Assembly: GCA_946056135.1 (NCBI GenBank)
Contig: CAMGIN010000005.1
Span: 1-52,841 of the forward strand
Length of the DNA: 52,841 nucleotides
Origin: an uncultured bacterium
GTDB lineage: Bacteria > Bacillota > Clostridia > Oscillospirales > Oscillospiraceae
Reading direction: 5' to 3'
Of the stretch, positions 21,624 to 52,841 are shown piece by piece. Numbering within the stretch: position 1 is the stretch's first letter; every line of letters starts with the position of its first letter. Position numbers and translations under genes: made by a program. The notes beneath the pieces were generated by a model that was not told the DNA's origin, did not search any database, and was given only the letters and a program-made list of their open reading frames with translations.

Positions 21624-21691
21624 AGATATAAGATATGAGATTCGAGATATAAGATATTGTGGAGAATAGGATATCTTGTATCTTACATCTC
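21624..21691. repeat. Seven-base phased repeat with opposed arm (AGATATA type)
   Basis: Five consecutive heptamers AGATATA, AGATATG, AGATTCG, AGATATA, AGATATT occupy 21624-21658. Opposed units ATATCTT, GTATCTT, ACATCTC occupy 21671-21691. The two arms can pair around a short loop. The array lies between gdpP and rplI. Confidence 0.75.
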
Positions 21692-21701
21692 AAAAAGGTA
21701 T

Positions 21702-23678
21702 TTACTCCTCGTAGAACTTATCGATGGACGCAACCAGCTTATCCAGAGCGTCCTTGACGTTGGTGTCCTTCATCTGGGCGCCTGCGGTAGCCGTGTTGCC
21801 CCCGCCGCCCAAAGGCTCCAGGATCATCTGCACATTGGCAGAGCCGATACTCCGTGCGGAAATAATAACCTGATCTCCATCCGGGTACATGACAAAAGAG
21901 GCGGTAATGCCGGAAATATTCAGCAGCTCATCCGCCGCCTGGGCCGCCAGGACCCGGGTAGTGGTGGTGTTCAGCGCCGCAATGGCAATCTCCTGGCGGT
22001 AGAGCCGGGAGGACTTGATGATCTGATACTTTGCCATGGTGTCCTGGAAGTCGTTCTGCAGCAGCTTCTTGACCTCCGTGGGGTCCGCGCCCATTCTCCG
22101 CAAAGCGGCGGCCGCCTCAAAAGTGCGTTCCCCGGTGCGGACGTTGAAGAACTTGGTGTCCAGACAGATACCTGCCAGCAGGCACTTGGCCTCGATGGGC
22201 AGCATGTCCTGCTTCTCTACCGCATAGGACAGGAGCTCTGTCACCAGCTCGGCAGCGGAGGAGGCGTAGGTCTCATGGAGATTGACTACCACAGGGCTGA
22301 TATAGTCCGCCGCCCGGCGGTGATGGTCAATGACGCAGACCTTGGAAATTGCCTCCAGCAGCGGCTGGCACTCCACCTGATCCGGCCGGTTGGTATCCAC
22401 CACGATCAGAATGCTGCGGTTATCCGCCATCAGCAAGGCATCCTGTCCGGAGATGAAAACATCCTTATATTGGGGCTCCGCCTGGATCTCCTCAATGAGC
22501 TTCCCGGCAGCGTTTTTCTCCAGGTCGATGACAATGTTGCACTTTTTGCCTTTTTTCCGGCACAGGCAGCACACGCCGATAGCCGCGCCCACGGCGTCCA
22601 GGTCGGCGTTTTTGTGGCCCATGATGAACACATGGCCGCTCTGACCGATCAGCTCCATCAGGGAGTTAGCGGTGACGCGGGAGCGAACCTTGCTGCGGTA
22701 ATCCGCCTCGGTGCTGCGGCCGCCGTAGAAGGTGAAGTTCAGCCGGTCCTTAATGACCGCCTGGTCGCCGCCCCGGCTCAGGGCCATTTCAATGCCCAGG
22801 GCCGCAAAGTCATAGCTCTCCTCAAAATCCGCGCCGTCCACGCCCAGGCCAATGGAGATGGAAGCAGGCAGTCCGGTGGGGCTGACCACCTCATGGATCT
22901 TCTCCAGCAGAGAGAACTTATCCTCGGTGGCCCGCTGCAGATCCCGCTTCTCAAAGATGAACAGGAACCGGTTGCGCTCAAGCTTGCGCAGCAGTCCGTT
23001 GTAACCGTCAGTCCACTCGGTGATGGTGTCGCCCAGCTTGGCGTTCAGAGCGGAGATGGCGTTTTCCGTCAGGTTCTTGGTCAGCTCCTCATAGTTGTCA
23101 ATGAGGATGATGGAAACCACAGGGCGGGAGCGGATATATTCGTCCCGAACCTGGTACAGCTCCGTCAGATCGCTGAAATACAGGACCCCCAGCATGGTGC
23201 CCTTGCTGTCCTCGGCCCGGATGGTGGTGCCGTAGACCCGATAGCGGCGGGAGCCCAGCGTCACATCCTGGGGGCACTCGGTTTTGCCGGAAGCCAGCCA
23301 GTCCGTGCTGAAGCCGGGAAGAATCTCGTCCAAATCCTGCTCCATCATGGTATCCGCATACCCAGTCAGCTGGCTGAAGCGGTGGTTGGCCCAGATAATG
23401 CCGCCGTCTCCCAGCCGGGCCAGTACCGCAGGCAGCGGGCTTTCCCCTTGGCTGGTGGCCTCCATGGTGTTGGAAGCATCCTGAATATACTTCTGAATTT
23501 GACGGTTTCGCCGGCTGCGGTTCATGATATAAGCCATGAACACCAACAGTGTCACACCAGTCTCCCCGGCGGCCAGCCAATACTGTCCCGTCAGCAGCGC
23601 TGCCGCGCAGAACGCCGCCATGACCAAAAAATACAACCCCATTCCGGGCCGTAACAGTCTTCCCAGTTTTCGTCTCAC
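21702..23678 (-). CDS. gdpP: Cyclic-di-AMP phosphodiesterase (DHH/DHHA1), GdpP
   Basis: A 658-residue membrane phosphodiesterase that hydrolyses c-di-AMP to pApA and so sets osmotic and wall homeostasis. Two membrane helices (about 14-52) are followed by a PAS domain (about 85-185), a degenerate GGDEF domain (about 185-310, no GGDEF sequence) and a DHH-DHHA1 phosphoesterase with [24 protein letters not shown] and VIDHHRRA as metal motifs; a glycine-rich [12 protein letters not shown] lies near the end. The start is GTG at 23678, ten bases after AAGGAGG. It heads the minus-strand operon and has its own promoter. Confidence 0.95.
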
Positions 23679-23760
23679 TTGCTTCCCGCCTCCTTATGGC
23701 AACGGTATGGCGAATCCCCAATGCCGAGCGCTGCTGCGTTTAGCGCATACTATACCCGCT

Positions 23761-23789
23761 ATTATAGCAAATCCAACCAAATCCTGCAA
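23761..23789 (-). promoter_or_regulatory. Promoter of gdpP
   Basis: On the minus strand TTGCAG (23784-23789), 17-base spacer, TATAAT (23761-23766). Confidence 0.8.
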
Positions 23790-23831
23790 CAGGTTTTCCC
23801 GGATTTCCGTAAAAAACCATTCAAAAATAAT

Positions 23832-23862
23832 GGTATACTTTTTCATGATTTTGTGTTATACT
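23832..23862 (+). promoter_or_regulatory. Two possible extended -10 promoters ahead of RNase J
   Basis: TGGTATACT (23832-23839 region) and TGTTATACT (23854-23862) fit extended -10 elements; neither has a good -35. The leader to the start codon would be about 180 bases, with one GC hairpin (CCGGG...CCCGG, about 23878-23898). I see no other gene in 23679-24050. Confidence 0.45.
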
Positions 23863-24050
23863 ATGTGTCGATGGCGCCGGGATGGGCTGGACCCGGGCAT
23901 TTCAAATTCAGCGGCTGACGATGCCGCGTAAAACGCATTTTTGCAGGCATTTTCCCAAAAAAGGCGATTCAGGGCCGGATTTTGGGCATATGGCTGCCTG
24001 TTTGTTATGCCTGTCTACCAAAGACAGCAAAAATCGAAAGGAGTATTTTT

Positions 24051-25706
24051 TTGGCAGAAAAACTGAAAATTATCCCTCTGGGCGGTCTGGATGAGATCGG
24101 CAAGAACATCACCGTCCTGGAGTACGGCAAGGACATGATCGTGGTGGACTGCGGCGTGGGCTTCCCCGAGGAGGACATGTACGGCGTGGATCTGGTGATC
24201 CCGGACTTCTCCTACCTGGTGGAGAACCAGAAAAAGCTGCGGGGCTTCTTCATCACCCACGGCCACGAGGACCATATCGGTTCCATTCCCTACGCCATGC
24301 GGGAAATAAACTGTCCCATCCATGGCACCGCTATGACCAACGGCCTGATTAAGCTGAAGCTGGAGGAACACCGGCTGGCAGACAAGGTCAAGCTCATCAC
24401 CCACAAGCCCGGCGACGTGGTGAAGGCCGGATGTTTCAGCGTGGAATTCATCCATGTGAATCACTCCATCGCCGACGCGGTGGCGTTTGCCATCCGCACC
24501 CCTGTGGGCACCGTGGTCTTTACCGGCGACTTCAAGATCGATCCCACCGCCAAGGACGGCATGATGGATCTGGCCCGGCTGGGCGAGCTGGGCAACCAGG
24601 GTGTCCTGGCGCTGCTGGCGGACTCCACCAATGTAGAGCGCAGCGGCTACACCCCCAGCGAAAACCTGGTGGCGGAGAGCCTGGACCGGCAGTTCAAGAA
24701 CTGCGACCAGCGAATCATCGTCACCACCTTTGCCTCCAACATGCACCGCATTCAGTCCATCCTGAACACCGCCCAGCGCTACGGCCGGAAGGTGGCCGTC
24801 ACCGGGCGCAGCATGGAGAATATGCTGAAGGTGGCCCAGGAGCTGGGGTATCTGAAGGTGAAGCAGGGCACCATTGTGGACCTGGCTTCCATCAAGAGCA
24901 TCCCCAAGAACAAGCTGGTCATCGTCTCCACCGGCTCCCAGGGCGAGAACATGTCCGCCCTGTACCGCATGGCCTTCGACACCCACAAGCAGGTGGAAGT
25001 CACCGCCGGGGACCGGATCATCATCTCCGCCTCCGCCATTCCCGGCAACGAGAAGGCCATCTCCAAGATCATCAACGAGCTGTACCGCAAGGGCGCCGAT
25101 GTGGTCTACGAAAAGAGCGAGGGCCTCCACGTCTCCGGACATGCCTGCCAGGAGGAGCTGAAGATCGTCCACGCCCTTGTCAAGCCCAAATTCTTCCTGC
25201 CCGTCCACGGCGAGCAGCGTCACCTGCAGATTCACTCCAAGCTTGCCCAGCAGATGGGCATGAACCCCCGGAACATCCACATTGGGGAGCTGGGCACCGT
25301 GTTCGAGCTCACCGCCAAGACCTGCAAAGCAAACGGCACCGTTACCGCAGGCAAGGTCTTCGTGGACGGCATCGGTGTAGGCGATGTGGGCAGTGTGGTT
25401 CTGCGGGATCGCAAGCACCTGGCTGAGGACGGCATGATCGTGGTGTGCGTGAACCTCAGCGCCGAGGATGGCAGCGTGGTCACCGGCCCGGACATCATCA
25501 CCCGGGGCTTCATCTACGTGAAGGAGTCCGAGGAACTGATGGATGCGCTGCAGAATGTGGCTATGGAGGCCATCGAACGCTGCCAGCGAAAGCACGTCCG
25601 GGAGTGGTCCACCATCAAGTCCGCCATCAAGAACGACCTGAGCGGCTACCTGTACAAGGCCACCAAGCGCAATCCCATGATTTTGCCGGTGATTTCGGAA
25701 GTATAA
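24051..25706 (+). CDS. rnjA: Ribonuclease J
   Basis: A 551-residue metallo-beta-lactamase/beta-CASP ribonuclease with 5'-3' exonuclease and endonuclease action in mRNA decay and rRNA maturation. The metal motif is THGHEDHIG (H70, H72, D74, H75); D-S-T-N-V-E, the beta-CASP blocks (TTFASNMHRIQ, STGSQGE, SASAIPGNEKAI) and HVSGHACQEE-LKIVHALVKPKFFLPVHGE follow. The start is TTG at 24051, seven bases after AAAGGAG (24037-24043), giving MAEKLKIIPLGGLDEIGKN; the frame upstream is not conserved. J1 and J2 cannot be told apart with certainty here. A heptamer array follows. Confidence 0.95.
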   Translation: MAEKLKIIPLGGLDEIGKNITVLEYGKDMIVVDCGVGFPEEDMYGVDLVIPDFSYLVENQKKLRGFFITHGHEDHIGSIPYAMREINCPIHGTAMTNGLIKLKLEEHRLADKVKLITHKPGDVVKAGCFSVEFIHVNHSIADAVAFAIRTPVGTVVFTGDFKIDPTAKDGMMDLARLGELGNQGVLALLADSTNVERSGYTPSENLVAESLDRQFKNCDQRIIVTTFASNMHRIQSILNTAQRYGRKVAVTGRSMENMLKVAQELGYLKVKQGTIVDLASIKSIPKNKLVIVSTGSQGENMSALYRMAFDTHKQVEVTAGDRIIISASAIPGNEKAISKIINELYRKGADVVYEKSEGLHVSGHACQEELKIVHALVKPKFFLPVHGEQRHLQIHSKLAQQMGMNPRNIHIGELGTVFELTAKTCKANGTVTAGKVFVDGIGVGDVGSVVLRDRKHLAEDGMIVVCVNLSAEDGSVVTGPDIITRGFIYVKESEELMDALQNVAMEAIERCQRKHVREWSTIKSAIKNDLSGYLYKATKRNPMILPVISEV

Positions 25707-25715
25707 ACAGAAAGC

Positions 25716-25854
25716 AAATGCTGAATGCAGAATGCTGAATGCAGAATGCAGAATGCTGAATGCTGAATGATTGTATCCCTTCGGGATAGATTGAAATTCA
25801 TCCCCTGAGGGGATACTTTCATTCAGCATTCAGCATTTAGCATTCAGCATTTCG
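25716..25854. repeat. Seven-base phased repeat with opposed arms (GAATGCT/GAATGCA type)
   Basis: Eight units run from 25716 to 25771 (AAATGCT, GAATGCA, GAATGCT, GAATGCA and so on to GAATGAT). Opposed units ATTCAGC, ATTCAGC, ATTTAGC, ATTCAGC begin at 25821. Between them are two small hairpins, TATCCC-TTC-GGGATA and ATCCCC-TGA-GGGGAT. The array ends next to the ribosome binding site of the Dus gene. Confidence 0.85.
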
Positions 25855-25867
25855 TTGGAGTATTTTT

Positions 25868-26812
25868 ATGCACTACTACTTCGCTCCCATGGAGGGGCTG
25901 ACGGACAGCGTGTTCCGGCGTCTCCACCACCAGTATTTCCCTGGCGTGGACCGGTATTATATGCCCTTCCTCTCCCCCACCGTTCACCGGAGCCTGAGCC
26001 ACAAGGAGGAACGGGAACTGCCCAGGGCGGACAGCGTGGATTTCAGGGCGGTTCCCCAGATTCTGACCAAAAGCCCGGAAGATTTCCTCTGGGCGGCCCA
26101 GATCTGCCGGGATCGAGGTTATGATGAGATCAACCTGAATGTAGGCTGTCCCTCCGGCACCGTAGTGGCCAAGGGCAAGGGCAGCGGTATGCTCCGGGAC
26201 CTGGATTCGCTGGACGCCTTTCTGGAGGAAGTGTTCCGGAAGACGCCTCTGCCCGTCTCCGTCAAGACCCGGCTGGGATTGGAAAGCCCGGAGGAATTTC
26301 CTGCCATTCTGGAAATCTACAACCGATACCCCATCCGGGAGCTGATTGTGCACCCCAGAGTGCGCAAACAGTTCTACAACGGGGACGTAGACATGGAAAT
26401 GTTTGCCTACGCCGTAACGCACAGCAACAATCCCCTGTGCTACAACGGAAATCTCTTTTCCCTGGCCCAAATACATTCGCTTCAGACACGCTTTCCCCAA
26501 CCGCTATCCGTCATGATCGGGCGGGGACTCATCGCGGATCCCGGAATGCTCTCCGGCGGTACCAATATCGCTTTGCTGGAGCGCTTCATGAACGAGCTGC
26601 TGGAAACCTACGAAGCGGACTTCGGCGGCAGCCGCAACGCCATGTTCCGGCTGAAGGAGCATTGGAGCTATCTGCACACCCGCTTTATTGGCTGCGAAAG
26701 GCTGTGGAAGCGGCTGCGGAAAACCACAGACGTTTCCGAGTTCAGAGCCATCACCGCCGAGATCTTCCATACCCTTCCCCTGATTGAACCCAAAAAAGTC
26801 CCCGCTGAATGA
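25868..26812 (+). CDS. tRNA-dihydrouridine synthase family protein
   Basis: A 314-residue FMN-dependent tRNA-dihydrouridine synthase, reducing uridines in the D-loop with NADPH. FMN-site APMEGLTD is at 6-13; INLNVGCPSGTVVAKGKGSGML follows with catalytic C94; VSVKTRLGL, LIVHPRVRKQFYNG and VMIGRGLIADPGML complete the barrel. The length matches the Firmicute short form. ATG 25868 follows TTGGAG (25855-25860), which adjoins the repeat. Its stop codon lies within the terminator hairpin. Which D-loop position it modifies cannot be told. Confidence 0.93.
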   Translation: MHYYFAPMEGLTDSVFRRLHHQYFPGVDRYYMPFLSPTVHRSLSHKEERELPRADSVDFRAVPQILTKSPEDFLWAAQICRDRGYDEINLNVGCPSGTVVAKGKGSGMLRDLDSLDAFLEEVFRKTPLPVSVKTRLGLESPEEFPAILEIYNRYPIRELIVHPRVRKQFYNGDVDMEMFAYAVTHSNNPLCYNGNLFSLAQIHSLQTRFPQPLSVMIGRGLIADPGMLSGGTNIALLERFMNELLETYEADFGGSRNAMFRLKEHWSYLHTRFIGCERLWKRLRKTTDVSEFRAITAEIFHTLPLIEPKKVPAE

Positions 26813-26845: not shown

Positions 26846-28411
26846 TTAGCCGAGAGCCACATACCCCAGGGTGATCTTACTGTAATCCACTTCCATGGGA
26901 TAGGTCTCATTCAGGTCGATAAGCATCTGATTGATCTGTTCCTTTTTCCAGTCGCTTTCGGCGTAGTACTTCCACTGAGGGCTGCTGCCGCCGAAGTACA
27001 TGACGTGGTAGCCAAACTGGGTCTTCACCAGACCGTAATCGCCGACCTGTCGGCTTTCATCGAAGCACCAGTCGTTGAATTCCTGCACCATCTGGCCCTC
27101 GTAGACATTCTCATACAGGCCGCCATTGGTGTTGGAGCCGCCGTCCTGGGATTTTTCGTTTGCCAGAGCGGCAAAGCTTTCCTCGGTCTTCTCTCCTTCC
27201 AGCCAGGCATCCAGTACCGCCTGGGCTTCTTCCTCGCAGGCTGCCCATTCCTCATCGGAATAGGTGGTGGTGCCGTCTTCACCGGTGGTGCCGCCCTCTG
27301 GGCCGATCAGAATGTGGCGCACATTCACGAACATGCCATCCTTCGTGATGCCGTTTTCGCTGTACTCCGCTTCATGGGCAGCGAAGAACGCCTCCAGCTC
27401 CTGCTCTGTGGGAATCATTTTGTCAGTGGTATCGGCATAGTAGGGCGCGCCCCGGTAATAGCCCTCCTGATAGGCCGCAAAGTCGTCAAAACCCGCGCCG
27501 GGACCGATGTTATGCAGCAGCAGCTCATCCAGGGTCATGCCATAATACGCGGCGTCTTCCTCCAGAGAAGCACGCAGATTGTCCAGGTTTTCCCGATCCT
27601 CCGGGTCCATTTCCAGGCCGTTTTCCTGGGCCATGGCCGCCATGCCCTGGATCTGCTGCCAGTTATTCAGGGCGCACTGCAGGAAATACTGCTGCCAAGT
27701 CATATTGTCGCCCTCCAGGGACAGCTGGGTGTCCAGGGGCTGGGTATAATCCAGGCCGAAATAAGGGGCGTAGGCGCCGTAGGTGTTCAGGAATCCCTGA
27801 ACCTCCATCCAGTAGTAGACCTGGAGCTGGCTGTTGGTCAGCTCCAGATCCCCAATGGTGGCCACGACAACATCCTTGTTGGCAGCGGCCTCCTCGTCGG
27901 AGACGGTATAGCTGCCCTTGCAGGTGACGTCATCGGGGTTGCCGTCGGCGGGAATGGTGGCCGGGGCTTCGGTGGCTTCGGTCTCCATCTGGGCTTCCCC
28001 TGTGGTTTCCGCAACCGCATCCGTCTTCTTTCCGCTCATACCTGCCACAATCAACGCGATCAGCACTGCCAGCACCACTACCACTGCTGTGACAGCCAGC
28101 GCGATCTTGCCGGGAGTCGCCTTGAGACCCTCCTTAATCTCAGAGGAAGGGCTTTCCTCTGCGGATGCAGTCTCCTCAGCAGAAGCGGCTTCCTCAACGG
28201 GAGCAGTCTCCTCAACGGGGGCAGTCTCCTCAGCGGGAGCGGTCTCCTCAACGGGGGCAGCCTCCTCAACTGGAGCGGTCTCCTCAACGGGAGCGGTCTC
28301 CTCAGTGGGAATGATCTGTTCATTCCCTTCTTCAGCAAATTTTTGTCCGCACTTCGGGCAGAAGACTCCGTCATCCGGAATTTCTCCCTGGCAATATTTG
28401 CAAACTTTCAT
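26846..28411 (-). CDS. Zinc-ribbon, membrane-anchored peptidyl-prolyl isomerase (PpiC/SurA type)
   Basis: A 521-residue protein with an unusual layout. An N-terminal zinc ribbon (C4, C7, C18, C21: CKYC...CPKC) is followed by a repeat of E-E-T-A-P-V-type hexapeptides (about 36-87), a membrane helix at about 103-125, a SurA-like helical region and a parvulin domain (about 340-480; VRHILIGPEGG..., EKSQDGGSNTNGGLYENV, FGYHVMYFGG). The parvulin part would lie outside and assist folding of secreted proteins, like PrsA, but here there is a membrane anchor instead of a lipobox and a cytoplasmic zinc ribbon. ATG 28411 follows GAGG. It has its own promoter. Confidence 0.85.
   Translation of the reverse strand: MKVCKYCQGEIPDDGVFCPKCGQKFAEEGNEQIIPTEETAPVEETAPVEEAAPVEETAPAEETAPVEETAPVEEAASAEETASAEESPSSEIKEGLKATPGKIALAVTAVVVVLAVLIALIVAGMSGKKTDAVAETTGEAQMETEATEAPATIPADGNPDDVTCKGSYTVSDEEAAANKDVVVATIGDLELTNSQLQVYYWMEVQGFLNTYGAYAPYFGLDYTQPLDTQLSLEGDNMTWQQYFLQCALNNWQQIQGMAAMAQENGLEMDPEDRENLDNLRASLEEDAAYYGMTLDELLLHNIGPGAGFDDFAAYQEGYYRGAPYYADTTDKMIPTEQELEAFFAAHEAEYSENGITKDGMFVNVRHILIGPEGGTTGEDGTTTYSDEEWAACEEEAQAVLDAWLEGEKTEESFAALANEKSQDGGSNTNGGLYENVYEGQMVQEFNDWCFDESRQVGDYGLVKTQFGYHVMYFGGSSPQWKYYAESDWKKEQINQMLIDLNETYPMEVDYSKITLGYVALG
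28151..28306 (-). repeat. In-gene 18-base tandem repeat coding E-E-[TA]-A-[PS]-[VA]
   Basis: About eight in-frame copies within the parvulin gene encode an acidic, Pro/Ala-rich, probably disordered linker of about 52 residues between zinc ribbon and membrane helix. The number of copies is likely to vary between strains. Confidence 0.85.
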
Positions 28412-28639: not shown

Positions 28640-30052
28640 ATGAATACCAAAACCACTGTCATTTCCCAGGCCCAGCTGGATGCCCAGTTTGCCTATTGTG
28701 ATAAAATCGCCGCCTATTGGCAGAGCCAAGGCATCGTCCCCACCGCTTATGTGGAGACCTACGGCTGCCAGCAGAATGAGGCGGATTCCGAAAAGCTCCG
28801 GGGGTATCTGGCCCAGAGCGGCTATCGCATGGGTTCCGACCCCGAAGGAGCCGATGTGGTAGTCATGAATACCTGTGCCATCCGGGAGCACGCGGAGCAG
28901 CGGGTCTTCGGCAACCTGGGGGCTTTGACCCACACCAAGCGCCGCCACCCTGGGCAGAAGATCTTCCTGTGCGGCTGCATGGCAGGCGAATCCAAGGTAT
29001 CTGACCGGATCCGGCAGAGCTATCCCCATGTGGACGGTGTCTTTTCCACCCACCACCTGTGGCAGTTCCCGGAGATTCTGTGGAATGTCCTCAGCGGAAA
29101 GAAGCGGCAGTTTTTTGTGGCCGACGAGCCCGGCTCCATCGCCGAGGGCATCCCTCAGGTGCGGGACTCCCAGCTGAAGGCCTGGGTGTCCATCATGTAC
29201 GGCTGCAACAACTTCTGCACCTACTGCATCGTCCCCTATGTCCGGGGCCGGGAGCGCAGCCGCCAGCCGGAGGACATCCTTCGAGAGTGCCGGGAGCTGG
29301 TGGAAAGCGGTGTCAAGGACATCACCCTGCTGGGCCAGAACGTCAACTCCTACGGCAAGGACCTTGGCGGCAGCATGGACTTTGCAGACCTGCTGGCGGC
29401 CATTGCCCAGATTCCTGGGGACTTCCTGATCCGCTTTATGACCAGCCACCCCAGAGACGCCTCCCAAAAGCTCTTTGACACCATGGCGCGCTACCCCAAG
29501 ATCGCCAAGCAGCTGCACCTGCCCTTCCAATCCGGCTCCACCCGGGTACTGAAAGCCATGAACCGTCACTATGACCGGGAGACTTACCTGGAAAAGGTAT
29601 TGTATGCCAAACAGATCATGCCAGAGCTGGTACTGACCTCCGACGTCATTGTGGGCTTCCCCGGGGAGACCGAGGAAGAATTTGAGGAAACCCTCTCTCT
29701 CATACAGCAGGTTCACTACGACAGCCTGTTCACCTTCATCTTCTCCCCCCGCCCTGGCACCCCGGCAGCCTCCATGGAGGACGCCACGCCCAAGGAGGAG
29801 AAAAACCGCCGCTTTGACAAGCTCTGTGCAGTGCAGAACGCCATCTCCGAGGAGATTCATAACAGCTATATCGGCAAGACCATGCGATGCCTGGTGGACG
29901 GCAGGGACAAAGATCAGCTCACTGCCCGAACCGAGGGCGGACGGCTGGTACGCTTTGCCGGCTGCGACGAGCTCATCGGCACCTTCCAAGAAATCACCAT
30001 CACTGGCGCAACAACCTGGAGCCTGACAGGGGAAATGCAAAATGCCAAATGA
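28640..30052 (+). CDS. miaB: tRNA-2-methylthio-N6-dimethylallyladenosine synthase
   Basis: A 470-residue radical SAM methylthiotransferase, adding a methylthio group to i6A37 of tRNAs that read UNN codons. The N-terminal UPF0004 domain binds the second 4Fe-4S cluster (C43 in ETYGCQQNEAD, C78 in NTCAIREHA, C112 in LCGCMA). The radical SAM CxxxCxxC is C189, C193, C196 (YGCNNFCTYCIVPY), and a TRAM domain ends the protein. ATG 28640 follows CGGAGGA. It shares the pathway with miaA further on, which makes its substrate. A repeat cluster separates it from mutS. Confidence 0.95.
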   Translation: MNTKTTVISQAQLDAQFAYCDKIAAYWQSQGIVPTAYVETYGCQQNEADSEKLRGYLAQSGYRMGSDPEGADVVVMNTCAIREHAEQRVFGNLGALTHTKRRHPGQKIFLCGCMAGESKVSDRIRQSYPHVDGVFSTHHLWQFPEILWNVLSGKKRQFFVADEPGSIAEGIPQVRDSQLKAWVSIMYGCNNFCTYCIVPYVRGRERSRQPEDILRECRELVESGVKDITLLGQNVNSYGKDLGGSMDFADLLAAIAQIPGDFLIRFMTSHPRDASQKLFDTMARYPKIAKQLHLPFQSGSTRVLKAMNRHYDRETYLEKVLYAKQIMPELVLTSDVIVGFPGETEEEFEETLSLIQQVHYDSLFTFIFSPRPGTPAASMEDATPKEEKNRRFDKLCAVQNAISEEIHNSYIGKTMRCLVDGRDKDQLTARTEGGRLVRFAGCDELIGTFQEITITGATTWSLTGEMQNAK

Positions 30053-30089
30053 ATTCTTGTTTTCTCTCCTTTTTGACAAATTCTGTACT

Positions 30090-30370
30090 ATTCAGTCGGG
30101 GTAGAGCGTTTTGCGTAAATGATCGTTTATCGCACCAAGGTACGTCTACCACTGTCATTGCGAGGAGCGCAGCGACGTGGCAATCCGTTTCCCTAAATGT
30201 CAATATTTTTGAGCATTTCGGTAAAATCAGCCTGTGCAAAGGGGAAACGGATTGCCACACCAGCGTGCGCGCTGGTTCGCAATGACAGCGGTAGTCGGTA
30301 CCCTGGCAGAACCATCGCACGTTAGTGTTATAAACGATCAATTATATGAGGAATCAAGACACGACTGAAT
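30090..30370. mobile_element. Composite MITE-like element with outer and inner inverted ends
   Basis: The outer motif ATTCAGTCG (30090-30098) is inverted at 30362-30370 (CGACTGAAT). Inside, TAAATGATCGTTTAT (30116-30130) faces ATAAACGATCAATTAT (30330-30345). Within these lies a further long inverted repeat whose arms begin TGTCATTGCGA and reach GGCAATCCGTTTCCC. No coding sequence is present. It occupies most of the 30053-30468 gap between miaB and mutS. Confidence 0.75.
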
Positions 30371-30418
30371 CGTTGCCAAATTCTAATTTGTTTTTTCATC
30401 CGCAGAGCGGATACCATC

Positions 30419-30453
30419 ATTTTGCATTCTGCATTCAGCATTCTGCATTTTAA
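30419..30453. repeat. Single-arm heptamer array (ATTCTGC/ATTCAGC type)
   Basis: Units ATTTTGC, ATTCTGC, ATTCAGC, ATTCTGC, ATTTTAA run in perfect seven-base phase and end at the mutS ribosome binding site. They are the reverse complement of the units at 25716. Confidence 0.8.
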
Positions 30454-35812: not shown

Positions 35813-35818
35813 TTTACA

Positions 35819-35846
35819 GTGTGGAGTGTGGAATGTGGAGTGTGGA
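35819..35846. repeat. Heptamer array (GTGTGGA type) at the start of the GNAT gene
   Basis: Units GTGTGGA, GTGTGGA, ATGTGGA, GTGTGGA are in perfect seven-base phase. The array begins six bases after the mutL stop and includes the start region of the next gene. Confidence 0.8.
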
Positions 35847-36383
35847 GTTTTCCAAAACGGCGGCTATACGCTGAGGTTGGCCCAGGCGGAGGATGCGGAA
35901 GAATACTTCCGGCAGAATTTTGATCCTCTCGATCCGGAGGTAGCCCGGCTGACCGGGTGCAAGCCCTGCTTTTCCCACGAGGAAGTGGTGGACTTCTTTC
36001 TCAAATGTGTGGCCGATGAGGATCGGTACGACTTCCTGCTCATCGCTCCGGACGGGCGGATCGTCGGGGAAAGCGTCATCAATGAGATTGATTGGGCGCT
36101 TCGCCGCGGCAATTTCCGGGTGGCCATCTTTCAGCCGGAGCACTGGGGCAAGGGTCTCGGAACCTGGGCAGTGGAGACCGTCCGGGACTTCGCGTTTGAA
36201 CGGCTGAAGCTGCACAGGCTGGAGCTGGATGTCTTCTCCTTCAATCCCCAGGCGGAAAGGACCTATCTCAGAGCAGGTTTTCGTCGGGAAGGGGTCCTGC
36301 GGGACGCGGTTTGGGACGGAGAACGGTATGCCGACGATATATTGATGGCGATTTTGGAGGACGAATGGAGGGCTTGTCGTTGA
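35835..36383 (+). CDS. GNAT family N-acetyltransferase, RimJ/RimL type
   Basis: A GNAT protein of about 182 residues, transferring acetyl from acetyl-CoA to an unknown amine. The fold is recognised by YTLRLAQAEDAEEYF, the acetyl-CoA loop (QPEHWGKGLGTWAVETV, Q-x-x-G-x-G type) and LHRLELDVFSFNPQAERTYLRAGFRREG, as in RimJ/RimL and SpeG-like enzymes. The 5' end lies in a heptamer array; I choose GTG 35835, eight bases after GGAG within that array; GTG 35826 is the alternative, and the ATG at 35833 is out of frame. The first residues are thus repeat-encoded. The stop overlaps the miaA start (TTGA). Confidence 0.85.
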   Translation: MECGVFQNGGYTLRLAQAEDAEEYFRQNFDPLDPEVARLTGCKPCFSHEEVVDFFLKCVADEDRYDFLLIAPDGRIVGESVINEIDWALRRGNFRVAIFQPEHWGKGLGTWAVETVRDFAFERLKLHRLELDVFSFNPQAERTYLRAGFRREGVLRDAVWDGERYADDILMAILEDEWRACR

Positions 36384-43218: not shown

Positions 43219-43256
43219 AAAATCGCCGATCTTCGACAGAAGATTGGCGATTTTTA
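43217..43256 (+). terminator. Terminator of the tRNA transcript
   Basis: Arms AAAATCGCCGATCTT and AAGATTGGCGATTTT (one G-T pair) followed by T-run, immediately after the tRNA-Tyr 3' end. Confidence 0.88.
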
Positions 43257-43333
43257 CTTCTTCACTATTACCTATTCACTCTTCACCGAATCATACAGGC
43301 GATTTTTGAAAGTAATAGGTAATAGTGAATAAG
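43254..43333. repeat. Seven-base phased repeat with opposed arms (TTCACTA/TTACCTA type)
   Basis: Units TTACTTC, TTCACTA, TTACCTA, TTCACTC, TTCACCG run from 43254 to 43288. Opposed units TAATAGG, TAATAGT, GAATAAG are at 43313-43333. CACTATTACCTATT in one arm is exactly complementary to the other. Confidence 0.8.
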
Positions 43334-43337
43334 TTTA

Positions 43338-48194: not shown

Positions 48195-48223
48195 ATTTGC
48201 CAAAGGACCTTCTCCGAAAAGAT

Positions 48224-48265: not shown

Positions 48266-48268
48266 TCG

Positions 48269-49030
48269 TTATGCGAATTTGCAAAGCAGCTCCGCCAGGG
48301 CTGCCCAGTCACTTCCCTCGTATTCGAAGTGGCGGCAGTCCGGCTGGCCGGGCAGCTTCCCGGGATCGGCGGGCAGCTGGTCTGATGGGGTCAGGTTGGT
48401 GTGCAGGTACAGCGTGGCCATGCCTGCGGCTTTGGCTCCGGCGATGTCCGTCTCCCGGTCATTGCCGATCATGAGGCAGTTAGCGGGGTCCAGGTTTTCC
48501 GTTTCCAGCAGTGCCCGGTAAAACCGCAGGTCCGGTTTACGGCAGCCATAGTCGGAGGACAGGTAGATGCCGTCCAGCTGCTTCCCCAGCCCCAGATACC
48601 GAAGTTCATAGGCAGTGAAGACGTGCTGGGCATTGCTCAGCAGCCACAGGCGGCAGCCCTGTTCCCGGAGCCGTGCCAGAGCCTCCAGAACGTTGGGATA
48701 GAGCCGGATATAATCCATGGAGAGAATCCGGAAGAACTGGGCCGCGTTGACACCCAGAGTCTGGCTATCCCGGGTCACACCCTTTGCCCGGAACAGCTGG
48801 GCCATAACCTGCTCAAAGGGGATGTCCGGGAAGCACTCGTAGGACTGCCCCGCCGCCGCTTCCCGCTGCTGCATGGCGTCCTGAAAGGCCTGCTTCAGCT
48901 CCGGCCCGGTATAGTGGGCGCCGTAGAAGCCAAAGTAGATGGCGGTCTTCTCCCAGACAGTGTCATCCTCCTCTGTGTGGATGTCCACCAGAGTGCCGTA
49001 CAGGTCGAAAATCAAATCGGTATAGGTCAT
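48269..49030 (-). CDS. HAD family hydrolase
   Basis: A 253-residue haloacid dehalogenase-type phosphatase. Motif I is D9-L-Y-G-T-L-V-D (nucleophile D9), motif II LLSNA, motif III K in GCRKPDLRFY, motif IV IGNDRETDIAGAKAAGM. The second Asp of motif I is Tyr, as in some YjjG-type nucleotidases. The insertion between motifs I and II suggests a cap of the C1 type. AAAGGA is before ATG 49030. The substrate is unknown. The promoter is TTGATT-18-TATACT at 49066-49095. Confidence 0.9.
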   Translation of the reverse strand: MTYTDLIFDLYGTLVDIHTEEDDTVWEKTAIYFGFYGAHYTGPELKQAFQDAMQQREAAAGQSYECFPDIPFEQVMAQLFRAKGVTRDSQTLGVNAAQFFRILSMDYIRLYPNVLEALARLREQGCRLWLLSNAQHVFTAYELRYLGLGKQLDGIYLSSDYGCRKPDLRFYRALLETENLDPANCLMIGNDRETDIAGAKAAGMATLYLHTNLTPSDQLPADPGKLPGQPDCRHFEYEGSDWAALAELLCKFA

Positions 49031-49065
49031 GCGAATCCTTCTTTCCCTCTTATTTCTTTCCCGAA

Positions 49066-49095
49066 AGTATAGCACAGATGCTCCCCAAAAATCAA
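49066..49095 (-). promoter_or_regulatory. Promoter of the HAD gene
   Basis: On the minus strand TTGATT (49090-49095), 18-base spacer, TATACT (49066-49071). Confidence 0.6.
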
Positions 49096-49141
49096 TCCGT
49101 TTCTCCGCAAACGGATTAATTTTCAGCTCCATTTTGCATTC

Positions 49142-49180
49142 AAAAAAACGCCGGAAAACAGGCTTTGTCTTCTGGCGTTC
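49142..49180 (-). terminator. Intrinsic terminator of the second degV gene
   Basis: On the minus strand GAACGCC (about 49173-49180) and GGCGTTT (about 49146-49152) pair, followed by a T-run (49142-49148). Confidence 0.75.
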
Positions 49181-49195
49181 TTTGGTTTTTCCTTA

Positions 49196-50065
49196 TCAGA
49201 CCACAGACTTTTTGATGATACCGGAACCAATGGCGTTGATCCCCACGTGGCTGGCAATGCTGCAAGGGAGCTGAACATAGGAAACGGGGATGTTGGGGAA
49301 TTCCTGCTGAACCCGCTGACGCCATTTCTCCGCCATTTCCTCGTCCGCCAGAGTACCCGCTGTTTCCACCTGGAGCTGGTCGTCCGGCACATCCGCAAAG
49401 CGGGTGGTCCGGTCTGCCTTCAGGGCTTCCAGCATCTTCTCCTCCGCCTGCTTCATACCTCTGGCCTTAGCGAAGGTGTCCAGCTTGTCACCCTGGATCG
49501 TCAGCACTGGCTTCAGGTTGAGGACTGTGGCAAAAGCGGCGACAGCAGGGGTAATCCGCCCGCCCTTCTTCAGGTATTCCATGGAGTCCACACTGATGTA
49601 GATGCTGGCGTCATAGGCCCGCGCTTCCAGATAGTCCTTGATTTGCTTGGCGTTCATGCCTGTCTGGGCCAGCTTCAGGGCACTGTAGACGGACTCCCGC
49701 TGGGTCACGGAGATCCGGTGGTTGTCCACCACCTGGACCTTGCCGTCGTAATCCGCGGCGAACAGAGCGGCATTCTGGCAGGACCCGCTGAGTCCGCTGG
49801 ACATGGGGATGTACACGATCTCGTCGAAGCCATCCTGGAGGATGCTGTCCCAAAGCTCCATGACCTGGCCGGGGGAGGGCTGGGAGGTGGAAATGGCCTG
49901 ATGCTGCTCCATCGCTTCGTAAAGCTGGCCGCTGTGAATCTGGATGCCCTCCAGATACATCTGTTCCTCGATCAGGACTGGCATTGGCAGGAGGTAGATC
50001 CCGGCGCTCTTCGCTTCTTCCTGGGTGATGCCGCTGTTGGTGTCGGTTGAAATTGCAATTTTCAT
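49196..50065 (-). CDS. DegV family fatty-acid-binding protein (second copy)
   Basis: A 289-residue DegV/FakB-type protein. The signature IAISTDTNSGIT, TSQPSPGQVMELWDSIL, YIPMSSGLSGSCQNAALFA (S-S-G-L-S-G-S substrate loop), EYLKKGGRITPAVAAFATVLNLKPVL and a C-terminal HVGINAIGSGIIKK show the full fold. It is clearly different from the copy at 44364. AAAGGCAG lies upstream of ATG 50065. It is divergent from the TetR gene, whose putative operator lies between the two, so it could be under the same control. Confidence 0.93.
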   Translation of the reverse strand: MKIAISTDTNSGITQEEAKSAGIYLLPMPVLIEEQMYLEGIQIHSGQLYEAMEQHQAISTSQPSPGQVMELWDSILQDGFDEIVYIPMSSGLSGSCQNAALFAADYDGKVQVVDNHRISVTQRESVYSALKLAQTGMNAKQIKDYLEARAYDASIYISVDSMEYLKKGGRITPAVAAFATVLNLKPVLTIQGDKLDTFAKARGMKQAEEKMLEALKADRTTRFADVPDDQLQVETAGTLADEEMAEKWRQRVQQEFPNIPVSYVQLPCSIASHVGINAIGSGIIKKSVV

Positions 50066-50112
50066 TGTCGCGTAACTGCCTTTCTATCGATAGCCCTCAC
50101 AGGGGCACCGCG

Positions 50113-50141
50113 TTGACTTTTTTGTAAAAAACTGATACAAT
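50113..50141 (+). promoter_or_regulatory. Promoter of the tetR-like gene
   Basis: TTGACT (50113-50118), 17-base spacer, TACAAT (50136-50141). The -10 region overlaps an inverted repeat. Confidence 0.8.
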
Positions 50142-50158
50142 GCGAGACAAGTGTATCA
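50133..50158. promoter_or_regulatory. Inverted repeat, possible TetR-family operator
   Basis: TGATACA (50133-50139) faces TGTATCA (50152-50158), overlapping the promoter -10. The half site recurs at 50209-50216 (TGTATCAG), each preceded by GAGACAA. It fits autorepression by the TetR-like protein. Confidence 0.6.
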
Positions 50159-50232
50159 CGTTTTCTCTGGTTCAGCAACCATCATTTGTGAGACAAAAAT
50201 GCCGAAAATGTATCAGATCGGGAGAGACGGCT

Positions 50233-50775
50233 ATGGATAAACGGAAAGAGGAAAATCTGCGGGTAAAGAAGAGCATTACCGCCGCACTGTTTTCCCTGGT
50301 ACAGGAAAAACAGCTGGCGGATATCCACATCACAGAGATCATCCGCAAGGCCGGAGTAGCCCGGGCCTCTTTTTACCGGAACTACAGCTCCAAAGAGGAC
50401 ATTGTGGTCACTCTGATCCGGGATATCCTCCAGGCGTACCGGGAACAGATCCGCTATGAGGACGGAAACTTCTATACCTATCACAATCTCCTGCTGAGCT
50501 TTCAGTTTTTCCAAAAATACCGGGACTACATACTGAATCTGTGCCGCTCCGGGTTTTCCACTGCCCTTCTGGAGGAGCTGAACCTGTTTCATGAGAGCAT
50601 CGAGGGCACCATGCCGGCGTCCTCCATACAAAAGTACGAGCTGTATGTCTACATCGGGGCTCTGTTCAACACAGCGCTGGTGTGGCTGGTTGATGAGCAA
50701 AGGATCAGCGCCGAGGAGATTACCGCTTTTTTTCAGGAGAAGGTCTGCCGCATGACGAACAGCGGAAAGGAATGA
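50233..50775 (+). CDS. TetR/AcrR family transcriptional regulator
   Basis: A 180-residue regulator with the TetR helix-turn-helix at the N-terminus (KKSITAALFSLVQEKQLADIHITEIIRKAGVARASFYRNYSSKEDIV; helix-turn-helix about 30-53). The all-helical C-terminal part is the ligand pocket, with no recognised effector. GGGAGAG precedes ATG 50233. It lies upstream of a MATE exporter on the same strand and divergent from degV, so either or both may be targets; an inverted repeat overlaps its promoter. Confidence 0.9.
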   Translation: MDKRKEENLRVKKSITAALFSLVQEKQLADIHITEIIRKAGVARASFYRNYSSKEDIVVTLIRDILQAYREQIRYEDGNFYTYHNLLLSFQFFQKYRDYILNLCRSGFSTALLEELNLFHESIEGTMPASSIQKYELYVYIGALFNTALVWLVDEQRISAEEITAFFQEKVCRMTNSGKE

Positions 50776-50838
50776 ATTGATAACTGCACAACAAAGCGAT
50801 CATTTACGCTGGGAAGGTCAGATTTCCAGGCCCGCCTA

Positions 50839-50867
50839 TTGAAATTGCTCATAAAATACGCTATACT
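50839..50867 (+). promoter_or_regulatory. Promoter of the second MATE gene
   Basis: TTGAAA (50839-50844), 17-base spacer, TATACT (50862-50867). The half-motif GCGATCATTTACGC (from about 50797) upstream resembles the MITE end. Confidence 0.8.
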
Positions 50868-50952
50868 ATATCCATATTTTCGGTATTTTGCCGATTTCGG
50901 ATGGAAAGAAGATTCCCAAAGAACCGGTCAAAAGCAAGAACAGGAGAAATTT

Positions 50953-52332
50953 ATGGCACAGGAAAACGCAAAAGCCTATTTGTTCGAGGAAATGCCCATC
51001 CCCAAGGCGGTGATGCAGCTGTCCATCCCCATCGTGGTCAGTTCTCTGGTCACGATCATCTACAATCTGGCGGACACCTTCTTCGTGGGCATGCTGAACG
51101 ATCCCATCCAGAACGCGGCGGTGACTCTGGTATATCCCGTGATGCTGGCCTTCAACGCGGTAAACAATCTGTTCGGCGTGGGCACTTCCAGCATGATGAG
51201 CCGTAGTCTGGGCAGCGGCGACTATGAGAAAGTGCGAAAAAGCTCCGCTTTTGGCTTCTACGGCGCGTTGTTCAGCGGTCTGCTGTTCTCCCTGCTGTGT
51301 ACGGTCTTCCGGATGCCGCTGCTGCATCTGCTGGGTGCGGACGAGACCACCCTGGAAACCACCTACAACTATATGTTCTGGACCGTCTGCTGCGGCGCTA
51401 TGCCCGCAATTCTAAACGTGGTTCAGGCCTATATGGTCCGCAGCGAGGGGGCCTCCCTCCATGCCAGCATCGGCACCATGAGCGGCTGCATTCTGAACAT
51501 TCTGCTGGACCCCATCTTCATTCTGCCCTGGGGCCTGAACATGGGCGCTGCCGGCGCTGGCCTGGCAACCTTCGTGTCCAACTGCCTGGCCTGTGTGTAT
51601 TTCCTGACGCTGTCCCGGGTGAAGAAGGGCAAGACCTTCGTCTGCATGGACATCCGTAAGCTCAAATATCTGAGCAAGGACATTGTGCTGGGAATCTTCG
51701 GCGTGGGCATTCCCGCCTCCATCCAAAATCTGCTGAACGTGGTAGGCTCTACCATCCTGAATAACTTCACCGCCGCCTACGGAGCCTCTGCCGTGGCCGC
51801 CATGGGCGTGGCCCTGAAGCTGAACATGATCCCCATGCAGATGGGCATGGGCTTCTCCCAGGGCATCATGCCCCTGGTCAGCTACAACTATGCCAGCGGA
51901 AACCGGAAGCGAATGAAGAAGTCCATCCTGTTTGCCGCCGGCATTGTGGTCCCCTTTATGCTGGTGGTGACGGCAGGGTATTTCCTTGGTGCGCCCACAC
52001 TGATCCGTCTGTTCATGAAGAACCAGGAGATCGTGGACTATGGTTCCCACTTCCTACGGATCATGTGCCTGGCCTCCACCTTCCTGTGCATTGACTTCCT
52101 GGCAGTGGGTGTGTTCCAGGCCCTGGGTATGGGCAAGAACGCGCTGATCTTCGCCATCCTGCGTAAAGTGGTACTGGAGATTCCTCTGCTTTTCATCATG
52201 AACGCTGTATATCCCCTATACGGCCTGCCCTATGCCCAGGTGATCACAGAGACGATCCTGGCCGCCGCGGCGATTGTAATGCTGCGCCGAATCTTTAAGC
52301 AGGAAGGGCCTGGAATCACAAAGCAAGTGTAA
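50953..52332 (+). CDS. MATE family efflux transporter (second copy)
   Basis: A 459-residue MATE exporter with about twelve membrane helices. MPIPKAVMQLSIPIVVSSLVTIIYNLADTFFVG is the family start; GVGTSSMMSRSLGSGDYEKVRK and MGFSQGIMPLVSYNYASGNRKRMKKS are the two conserved linker motifs. It differs from the copy at 512-1906 and is of the DinF/NorM-like branch found in Firmicutes (Mep type). ATG 50953 follows AGGAGA by six bases; upstream in-frame sequence overlaps the promoter and is rejected. A TetR regulator precedes it and likely controls it. Substrate unknown. Confidence 0.93.
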   Translation: MAQENAKAYLFEEMPIPKAVMQLSIPIVVSSLVTIIYNLADTFFVGMLNDPIQNAAVTLVYPVMLAFNAVNNLFGVGTSSMMSRSLGSGDYEKVRKSSAFGFYGALFSGLLFSLLCTVFRMPLLHLLGADETTLETTYNYMFWTVCCGAMPAILNVVQAYMVRSEGASLHASIGTMSGCILNILLDPIFILPWGLNMGAAGAGLATFVSNCLACVYFLTLSRVKKGKTFVCMDIRKLKYLSKDIVLGIFGVGIPASIQNLLNVVGSTILNNFTAAYGASAVAAMGVALKLNMIPMQMGMGFSQGIMPLVSYNYASGNRKRMKKSILFAAGIVVPFMLVVTAGYFLGAPTLIRLFMKNQEIVDYGSHFLRIMCLASTFLCIDFLAVGVFQALGMGKNALIFAILRKVVLEIPLLFIMNAVYPLYGLPYAQVITETILAAAAIVMLRRIFKQEGPGITKQV

Positions 52333-52387
52333 TAAAAACGCCCCGAAAGAGTGAGAAAAAACCTGCCTCCTACAGAAACGACGTGAA

Positions 52388-52414
52388 ATGGGAGCCGTCA
52401 AAAACGGCTCCCAT
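52388..52414 (+). terminator. Hairpin after the second MATE gene
   Basis: Arms ATGGGAGCCGT and ACGGCTCCCAT; similar in sequence to the hairpin at 46230 but without a following T-tract. Confidence 0.6.
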
Positions 52415-52535
52415 TAACACCTCAACATATCTAGTGTACTATATTCTAATCCACAAGTCAATAAAATTTTTTAATTTATCAGCATTTCTCCCTTTTGTAC
52501 AGGATATATCAAACTTTTTTATGGACCATCCCATC

Positions 52536-52564
52536 TTGTAAATCAACCATTCCGGTGTTATCAT
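52536..52564 (+). promoter_or_regulatory. Promoter of a leader-like transcript near the window end
   Basis: TTGTAA (52536-52541), 17-base spacer, TATCAT (52559-52564). The stretch 52415-52535 before it is AT-rich and shows no gene. Confidence 0.7.
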
Positions 52565-52590
52565 AAAGATACAAAAAAGGAGTGAGTCCA

Positions 52591-52599
52591 ATGTACTAA
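52591..52599 (+). other. Minimal reading frame Met-Tyr-stop with strong ribosome binding site
   Basis: AAGGAG (52577-52582), eight-base spacer, ATG TAC TAA. Immediately after it, TAATCTC could pair with GAGAGGTTA, hiding the ribosome site of the next small frame. The arrangement resembles translation-attenuation leaders. Confidence 0.5.
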
Positions 52600-52637
52600 G
52601 TAATCTCCGAATCTATAGAAAGAGAGGTTAACCACAG

Positions 52638-52664
52638 ATGGAACCCACCTATGAAAAGGAATAA
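52638..52664 (+). CDS. Eight-residue leader-like peptide MEPTYEKE
   Basis: ATG GAA CCC ACC TAT GAA AAG GAA TAA follows GAGAGG (52622-52627) by ten bases. Its stop lies in the left arm of the terminator at 52663, so translation to the end would disturb the hairpin: a direct way for ribosome position to affect termination. There is no further proof that it is made. A function as leader for a gene beyond the window is possible. Confidence 0.4.
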   Translation: MEPTYEKE

Positions 52665-52712
52665 CCCTTGATCCGCGAAGTGATGAGTTGATGGATCAAG
52701 GGTTATTTCTTT
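52663..52712 (+). terminator. Intrinsic terminator (possible attenuator)
   Basis: Arms AACCCTTGATCC (52663-52674) and GGATCAAGGGTT (52693-52704), followed by ATTTCTTT. Confidence 0.85.
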
Positions 52713-52755
52713 GCCGACAGGCGCTCCAAAGGTGTTTTTTGCTTCTCCTGTAACG

Positions 52756-52804
52756 ATTCAGTCGCAGCCATGTCCCATATCCCGCACTGTAAATGATCGT
52801 TTAT
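52756..52804 (+). repeat. MITE-family left end (outer ATTCAGTCG, inner TAAATGATCGTTTAT)
   Basis: ATTCAGTCG at 52756-52764 and TAAATGATCGTTTAT at 52790-52804 repeat the end structure at 30090-30130. The rest would lie beyond the window. Confidence 0.75.
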
Positions 52805-52808
52805 CTTC

Positions 52809-52841
52809 GAATGCAAAATGCTGAATGCAGAATGCAAAATG
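52809..52841 (+). repeat. Heptamer array (GAATGCA/AAATGCT type), cut by window end
   Basis: Units GAATGCA, AAATGCT, GAATGCA, GAATGCA, AAATG... in seven-base phase, the same units as at 25716. It directly follows a MITE-family end. Confidence 0.8.

Follow-up and report, generated by a model that had tools for sequence, protein, structure and literature searches.

Seven-base repeat arrays of an Oscillospiraceae genome: probable arms of a small selfish hairpin element related to 23S rRNA intervening sequences

Six places in one contig of an uncultured Oscillospiraceae bacterium (GenBank assembly GCA_946056135.1, contig CAMGIN010000005.1) carry short tandem arrays with an exact period of seven bases, although the repeated unit changes from place to place. 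What keeps the period while the sequence drifts? The window, meaning the whole stretch of DNA analysed, is the entire contig C5 (52,841 bp) of a 2.46-Mb draft genome in 231 contigs that is 83% complete; the closest relatives by MutS are Oscillospiraceae, Clostridia, Eubacteriales and similar assemblies, many of them from animal guts. We consider it probable that a small selfish hairpin element, akin to the intervening sequences (IVS) of 23S rRNA, and its non-autonomous copies have these arrays as their terminal inverted repeats. Its full-length form would be a heptamer array, a gene for an intervening-sequence protein (IVP; PF05635/TIGR02436, 'four helix bundle') and the reverse complement of the array, the whole lying in an intergenic gap. 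Most copies in this genome, the window's included, would have lost the gene or never had it; they would be no more than a pair of arms with a short variable spacer between them, much like miniature inverted-repeat transposable elements (MITEs).

Period, polarity and enclosed genes

All six arrays claimed in the original prediction are present, as judged by a period scan and by reading the sequences. The scan covered 76 stretches of the draft genome (1,391,099 bases) at a score of at least 12 and returned 91 arrays of period 7, against 0, 0, 1, 1, 1, 1 and 0 for periods 2, 4, 5, 8, 10, 11 and 13 in the same 1.39 Mb. Periods 14 and 21 gave 50 and 25 arrays, both being multiples of seven, and the coding-type periods 3, 6, 9 and 12 gave 4, 8, 4 and 11. 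Dinucleotide shuffles of the genome held no period-7 array and at most one array of any period, which rules out a chance origin. The enrichment is strong and specific: neither another period nor shuffled sequence comes out as common. The argument made at the outset that coding does not explain the number seven is upheld as well, and coding repeats are ruled out, since seven is not a codon multiple and the coding-type periods are far rarer. Score thresholds vary with the sample in what follows: at least 10 for the first pass over plasmids, 11 for the common comparison of IVP loci, 12 for this genome, its family and the solo arrays, and 14 for the mutS loci of relatives. Around those mutS genes (80 related loci, 1.38 Mb) there were 11 period-7 arrays in eight loci, with units that differ from the window's, and no array of period 2, 4, 5, 8, 10 or 11.

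By crude six-frame calling of open reading frames (ORFs), 50 of the 91 arrays lie outside ORFs of at least 150 aa, compared with 11.7% of random 32-base places; 31 lie inside some ORF and 10 partly so. The arrays tend to come in pairs of fixed polarity. Among 21 neighbouring pairs separated by under 500 bp, two are parallel; the other 19 are opposed, and in every one of these the purine-rich arm comes first (reverse order, 0), at separations of about 10 to 450 bp and with spacers that vary. Grouped by hand, the units fall into GAATGCW/AAATGCW (38 arrays), GAGTGTG/GAGAGTG/GAGTTTG/GAGTTAG (40), GAAAGTT/GAAAATT (8), GAATAGA (2), GATATAA/GAGATAT (2) and one other. Whole elements also recur as near-identical copies (L174 and L179, 97.8% over 225 bp; the array at the end of the window is the left arm of that repeat). 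The units are local in distribution: three tandem copies of GAATGCD were found in this genome and in one of 149 other genomes of the family, and three of AGTGTGG, with one mismatch, in this genome and in 7 of 60 other genomes of the genus, where the reversed pattern had no match.

One spacer, at L034:13411-13831, encloses an ORF recognised as a 23S_rRNA_IVP protein. A Pfam search of the draft genome found four PF05635 genes above cut-off and all four adjoin heptamer arms, two being flanked on both sides (units GAATGCT and GAGTGTG) and two being preceded by a TTCACTA/TAGTGAA hairpin downstream of a tRNA gene. This second arrangement, in the order tRNA, terminator, repeat-armed hairpin and IVP gene, was seen at L191, L192, L213, L322, L326, L202, L204 and L220, while at the IVP loci L200, L203, L205 and L208 merely a nearby tRNA was noticed. 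A nearby conserved enzyme, such as a reverse transcriptase, polymerase or recombinase, had been suggested as a thing to look for; a conserved gene does adjoin the arrays, but it encodes a four-helix-bundle protein and none of those enzymes. In an NCBIfam scan, three of three IVP proteins match TIGR02436 ('four helix bundle protein') above cut-off. Among solved structures, 2rld is nearest in sequence, together with a weak match (E 0.09) to 2gsc, XCC0516.

We compared 111 IVP loci across other genomes: 33 from the family (including the four of this genome), 30 from a wider sample that bears the label of the same phylum, 18 from named plasmids of Cyanobacteriota, Bacteroidota, Spirochaetota, Chloroflexota and Bacillota (picked from 46 matches), and 30 from genomes reached via mutS relatives. 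These are the best-scoring retrievable loci and not all PF05635 matches listed; G673 is probably G255 (identical coordinates), and their IVP locus was counted once. Control loci were the 60 of the 80 mutS loci judged to have sufficient flank. At a score of at least 11, a period-7 array lies within 400 bp of the IVP gene in 74 of the 111 loci, against 4 of the 60 controls; by sample the counts are 21/33 (family), 20/30 (wider), 17/18 (plasmids; 18/18 at a score of at least 10) and 16/30 (mutS-relative genomes). Both sides of the gene carry arrays at 46 of the 111 loci (10, 10, 16 and 10 by sample) and at 0 of 60 controls. The two arrays are inverted at 41 of these loci, direct at four and tied at one; the purine-first polarity holds at 35 of the 46, is flat at 4 and is reversed at 7, of which 6 are on plasmids. 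There are 60 distinct units among the 74 loci, and the arms usually remain complementary to each other. An inverted match with a score of at least 15 surrounds the ORF at 62 of 81 IVP loci (19 fall below), compared with 4 of 81 for the best of five shuffles, and in the RNA fold of L265 both arms form one long stem round the ORF (z -9.2).

Very long heptamer arrays (about 260-385 bp) stand next to the IVP genes in L236, L258 and L269, a length that suggests expansion in place. PF05635 matches in G492 and G271 lie within open frames of 1753-1775 aa, which may be fusions or chance long frames.

Seven is the usual period at IVP genes and not an absolute one, for periods of 8, 11 and about 20 are found as well. 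In the common comparison, periods between 4 and 13 other than seven make up six locus-period cases. L229 (period 8) and L249 (period 11) have their repeats on both flanks, in direct and not inverted order, and at L202, L204 and L220 the region from the tRNA terminator to the IVP gene consists, by eye, of ATGATG motifs alternating with small hairpins, with opposed arms and units of about 20 bases. Because these other periods are found at some IVP loci, the period looks like a heritable property of the element lineage. At L229, on contig C150 of G559, one strand has four PF05635 matches in a span of about 5 kb, and the period-8 repeats surround the one examined.

Polymerase slippage is the main published idea for the origin of heptanucleotide repeats in the portions of the literature available: DNA polymerase would slip in steps of about seven bases, and heptamer arrays would arise by themselves in gaps, an idea of an earlier survey that is cited in PMC4692102 and PMC4679880. 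The same partial texts describe heptanucleotides as over-represented, or as the commonest repeats of 5-11 nt, in many bacterial genomes, and the variation from unit to unit within arrays does resemble slippage, which very likely acts inside arrays in any case. As their origin we find it unlikely. It does not predict opposed arms of fixed polarity, the link to IVP genes, the insertion boundaries at array ends or the absence of arrays from IVP-free relatives (the last two are given below), and the periods of 8 and 11 at other IVP loci argue against a constant of the polymerase.

Insertion boundaries and descent

In four comparisons of a filled plasmid site with its empty counterpart on a related plasmid without the IVP gene, homology breaks 2-19 bp from the outer array ends, so that the arrays approximately bound a discrete insertion. 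The breaks lie at 1428/1851 and the array ends at 1424/1849 for L265 (filled) and L342 (empty); the corresponding positions are 1410/1905 and 1413/1903 for L262 and L344, 1395/1982 and 1399/1975 for L252 and L343, and 1132/1982 and 1151/1977 for L269 and L348. The full-length element measures about 430-830 bp in these four cases. When L253 is compared with the same empty site as L252 (L343), one side is 83 bp off. No period-7 run with a score of at least 8 was found in, or within 60 bp of, the seven empty gaps examined. The armed IVP genes of the plasmids stand in a variety of places, restriction operons among them; at L252, L253, L260, L262, L263 and L269 the neighbouring genes are cas2/cas1, drmD/MmeI, ribonucleotide reductase subunits, hsdS/hsdR and cas6/cas4.

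Two of the window's sites could be compared in the same way. The gap at 21624, beside the L9 gene, is 13-19 bp long in five of five alignable relatives (41 searched) and 104 bp here. From the interior of miaB to mutS, 25 of the 35 alignable relatives have 739-800 bp and this genome has 1159 bp, and the shortfall of about 360-420 bp is close to the length of the element at 30033-30449; a period-7 array is present in none of the 25 short stretches and in two of the ten longer ones. For sites 35818 and 43254 there was no alignable flank pair among the relatives.

These empty sites bear on two other accounts of the arrays. The arrays could be regulatory hairpins of the host (terminators, stabilisers of messenger RNA, translational control or phase variation), repeatedly made or selectively kept between genes, as their place at gene borders and their strong folding might suggest; a translational role is proposed for TAACTGA repeats in the accessible part of PMC4679880. 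We think this very improbable, given that the 21624 site is empty in every alignable relative, that the miaB-mutS element is missing from most relatives, that the unit changes freely and that the IVP link is left unexplained. Alternatively, the arrays could be the older component, acting as landing pads if IVP genes or other elements insert preferentially into existing heptamer hairpins. Gene-less arrays do far outnumber the four IVP copies of this genome and other repeats are nested within some spacers, but there is little chance of this order of events in our view: the empty sites of the four plasmid comparisons lack arrays, and the unit follows the IVP lineage, as described next.

For the comparison of units with IVP sequences, 8 of the 111 loci were omitted (without a clear motif, or with a stop), which left 72 of the 74 loci with units. 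The arm unit tracks the IVP lineage: its similarity increases with IVP identity (Mantel r 0.32; 0 of 2000 permutations), and 76% of the IVP pairs with at least 80% identity (n=17) share at least six of the seven unit bases. Solo arrays, in turn, tend towards the unit of the resident IVP gene. Seven genomes had both solo arrays and a retrieved armed IVP locus (G657 and G660, which have arrays but no IVP found, and G658, whose IVP is armless, were omitted), and their solo arrays agree with the resident unit at 6.13 of 7 bases on average, where permutations average 4.69; of 5040 permutations two, one of them the true assignment, come up to 6.13. In the present genome six or more of the seven bases agree with a resident IVP unit in 61 of the 89 solo arrays. 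Four IVP-free genomes of the family contained no period-7 array in 355 kb, and one of four IVP-bearing genomes contained seven in 82 kb.

The ratio of nonsynonymous to synonymous substitution rates (dN/dS) of IVP genes was 0.05-0.23 in the seven computable pairs of 13 tried, which shows purifying selection on the protein. This matters for a further account, that the arrays are ordinary MITEs which a conventional transposase mobilises in trans, the IVP being a mere passenger. MITEs, like repetitive extragenic palindromic (REP) sequences and bacterial interspersed mosaic elements (BIMEs), are small, dispersed, hairpin-forming, mostly intergenic and non-autonomous. Terminal inverted repeats, dispersed near-identical copies and an excess of gene-less over gene-bearing copies are all as such an account would have them. 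Here, however, the ends are marked by a repeat register and complementarity and show no fixed sequence, and the gene-bearing form has an IVP and no known transposase. Given also that no target-site duplication was seen, that the IVP is under purifying selection and that no transposase is annotated between the arms at any of the 18 plasmid loci (transposases acting in trans were not searched for), we doubt that ordinary MITEs are the explanation. No reverse transcriptase is annotated in the 18 plasmid stretches.

A number of observations weigh against our reading of the arrays as arms of an IVP element. Arrays are concentrated at IVP genes but not confined there. No period-7 array lies within 400 bp of the gene at 37 of the 111 loci, and at more than 400 bp from it there were 2 arrays in 63 kb in the family, 11 in 40 kb on plasmids (threshold 10) and 16 in 65 kb in the wider sample, where arrays were common away from the gene too. 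The insertion is not simple, as the empty plasmid sites contain 13-273 bp that are absent from the filled sites, and either target DNA was lost on insertion or the empty sites themselves changed; target-site duplications were looked for by eye in these comparisons and none was seen. At 25717 the gaps of six relatives range from 46 to 1168 bp and offer no clean empty site. Movement of an element was not observed. As to the protein, the NCBIfam scan of three IVP proteins found no catalytic family, the IVP domain is merely slightly basic (median net charge +1 in 55 proteins), and several of the dS values are near saturation, with pairs that overlap. As to the units, 28 of the 89 solo arrays of this genome match resident IVP units poorly, and G061 is an exception among the seven genomes in that its solo arrays score 4.43 to its own IVP unit and 4.57-4.71 to those of most other genomes (one of its six IVP copies was retrieved). 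Three of the four IVP-bearing genomes of the family had no array in 141 kb. An association at the level of whole genomes, by IVP presence alone, proved weak: the gene is present in 6 of 8 genomes with arrays at the mutS locus and in 9 of 16 hand-chosen genomes without. Because two of those eight array-bearing draft genomes have no PF05635 match, the IVP gene is at most usual, and not proven necessary, for arrays; the two cases could be due to gene loss, to the incompleteness of the drafts or to A+T-rich runs that arose by chance.

A location in rRNA was considered for the array-free IVP loci and rejected. Rfam gave no rRNA match in the 40 of the 111 IVP loci tested with it, which include 22 of the 37 array-free ones (L245 and L249 among them). 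Of the 20 array-free loci in the main Rfam test, seven have a tRNA nearby.

Mechanism and known relatives

If the arrays are element arms, the IVP, as a relative of Avd and of the 23S rRNA IVS protein, might bind the arm hairpin, either as RNA or as single-stranded DNA, and help a host or resident polymerase or reverse transcriptase to copy the hairpin into new sites. We infer a role for the IVP as mobility factor. A reverse transcriptase as the resident enzyme was considered and set aside: the genome has a single RVT_1 match, on contig C179, beyond which no link to the arrays was sought. Recognition of the ends would depend on a seven-base register of paired repeats and not on a sequence, and because of this, changes of the unit could spread while the register is kept. 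Point changes might travel along an arm by slippage, and between arms when one is copied from the other through the hairpin, such that the register would be inherited while the unit drifts. The original prediction proposed selection or a copying mechanism that acts on length and pairing and not on sequence. The unit does change while length and pairing are kept, whereas selection on the period itself was not shown; inheritance of the register along the element lineage is enough to explain why the period is kept.

The published relatives of the IVP are cited here from the accessible parts of each source. The 23S rRNA IVS of Coxiella burnetii is described as a selfish element of 428 nt with an ORF, closed by a terminal stem of 28 bp at which RNase III cuts (PMC4990558); PF05635 is the S23p family (PMC10053308), and IVP ORFs occur in rRNA insertions of bacteria of the Candidate Phyla Radiation (PMC11270868). 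The elements described here share with the rRNA IVS the protein family and an ORF within a long stem of complementary terminal sequences. They differ in location, being found in gaps between protein genes or downstream of tRNA genes while the 40 loci tested gave no rRNA match, in having arms of tandem heptamers whose unit varies by locus, and in their many gene-less copies. The IVP is also related to Avd, the partner of reverse transcriptase in diversity-generating retroelements (DGRs), and PF05635 is the commonest Pfam family in aggregated data on DGR neighbours (PMC10053308). Two of three IVP proteins do match DivGenRetAVD weakly, but at 24.5 and 39.5 bits against a curated cut-off of 80 (the third has no match), and the plasmid stretches differ from DGRs in having no annotated reverse transcriptase.

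Heptamer simple sequence repeats (SSRs) form the other set of relatives. PMC4692102, as far as its text is available, describes Nostoc GGGGA(C/T)T and Xanthomonas GGGAATC heptamers, with over-representation and mixed units, counts 70 (Xcc) and 75 (Xac) closely spaced convergent heptamer pairs in Xanthomonas, and treats heptamer SSRs as generally without association to mobile elements; the corresponding part of PMC4679880 describes TAACTGA arrays in Beggiatoaceae and mentions slippage. SSRs of the short tandemly repeated repetitive (STRR) type resemble the arrays studied here in their period of seven, their mixed units and their mostly intergenic position. The arrays here differ in being tied to an inserted unit, and an IVP link was not found in the accessible portions of published accounts of SSRs. 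More generally, no published link between IVP genes and heptamer arrays was noticed in the literature searched, the accessible parts of PMC4853749, PMC8700078 and PMC10910872 included, in which preprints on bioRxiv and most subscription papers were not covered. The original prediction had set the window's arrays apart from the cyanobacterial STRR; that separation is not needed, as IVP genes on cyanobacterial plasmids carry the same inverted heptamer arms.

We put forward, as a tentative extension, that heptamer-armed IVP elements may be a widespread mobile class whose ends are recognised by register and arm pairing, that they may be the general source of bacterial heptanucleotide repeats (the cyanobacterial STRR and those of Xanthomonas and Beggiatoaceae), and that the 23S rRNA IVS may be a branch that settled in rRNA. 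If so, an abundant class of bacterial repeats of unexplained origin would gain a cause, the orphan family PF05635, whose name refers to its place in rRNA or is simply 'four helix bundle protein', would gain a likely role, and the marking of element ends without sequence could be put to a direct test. A reason would also be suggested for the presence of IVP genes in CRISPR, DISARM and restriction operons, namely that they are insertions and not parts of the defence; the link between PF05635 and defence loci that is noted in the available text of PMC10053308 may reflect such insertion.

Arrays of the window and minor observations

The arms in the window and the spans returned by the scan are listed in Table 1. 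RNA folding confirmed the opposed arms that had been proposed at 21624, 25717 and 43254 (z -3.2, -11.0 and -9.2, respectively). The description of the six arrays as intergenic is doubtful at 35818, where the array starts 5 bases past the mutL stop and extends into the next predicted ORF; a search for neighbouring opposed arrays found no partner arm for it. None of the window's own copies contains a PF05635 ORF. For five of the six arrays the unit also flanks some resident IVP gene, the exception being 21624, whose AGATATA unit matches none of the units of the four resident copies. Hairpins of the tRNA-linked class at 43254 also stand before IVP genes in L191 and L192, while the copy in the window has no gene.

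Table 1. Arms and spacers of the heptamer arrays in the window
Position	Strand	Feature	Evidence	Period-7 scan span
21624..21657	+	Left (purine) arm, unit AGATATA	Scan, RNA fold	21624-21657
21671..21692	-	Right arm (TATCTTGTATCTTACATCTC) of the 21624 hairpin	RNA fold	
25717..25769	+	Left arm, unit GAATGCT/A; 10 bases downstream of the end of an RNase J-like gene	Scan, fold	25708-25769
25770..25819	.	Spacer (loop) with nested small hairpins, without IVP gene	Fold	
25820..25851	-	Right arm, AGCATTC units; a dihydrouridine-synthase-like gene begins 16 bases on	Scan, fold	25820-25851
30033..30051	+	Weak left arm (AAATGCA), overlaps the miaB stop codon; partner is 30418-30449	Scan; local inverted match score 14	
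30418..30449	-	Right arm, other-strand unit GAATGCA, immediately upstream of mutS	Scan	30418-30449
35818..35848	+	Lone array of unit GTGTGGA; its neighbours are mutL and an acetyltransferase-like ORF	Scan	35818-35848
43256..43276	-	First arm (TTCACTA/TTACCTA) of hairpin downstream of the tRNA-Tyr terminator	Fold	43261-43286
43314..43334	+	Second arm (TAGTGAA) of the tRNA-linked hairpin	Fold	
52809..52841	+	Left arm, truncated by the contig end, of a dispersed element of 181 bp that is complete in L174 and L179	Scan, repeat comparison	52809-52841

Another dispersed inverted repeat, TAAATGATCGTTTATC...GATAAACGATCATTTA, surrounds heptamer elements or lies next to them at 30116-30344 and 52790-52808 of the window and in L174, L179, L137 and L151; at 30116-30344 a further palindrome (of the GTCATTGCGAGGAGCGCAGCGACG... 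type) lies inside it. Elsewhere in the window, a tandem repeat with an 18-base unit (about 7.5 copies) lies within ORFs at 28139-28304, and a lysine riboswitch (Rfam RF00168, 91 bits) lies on the minus strand at 12751-12920.

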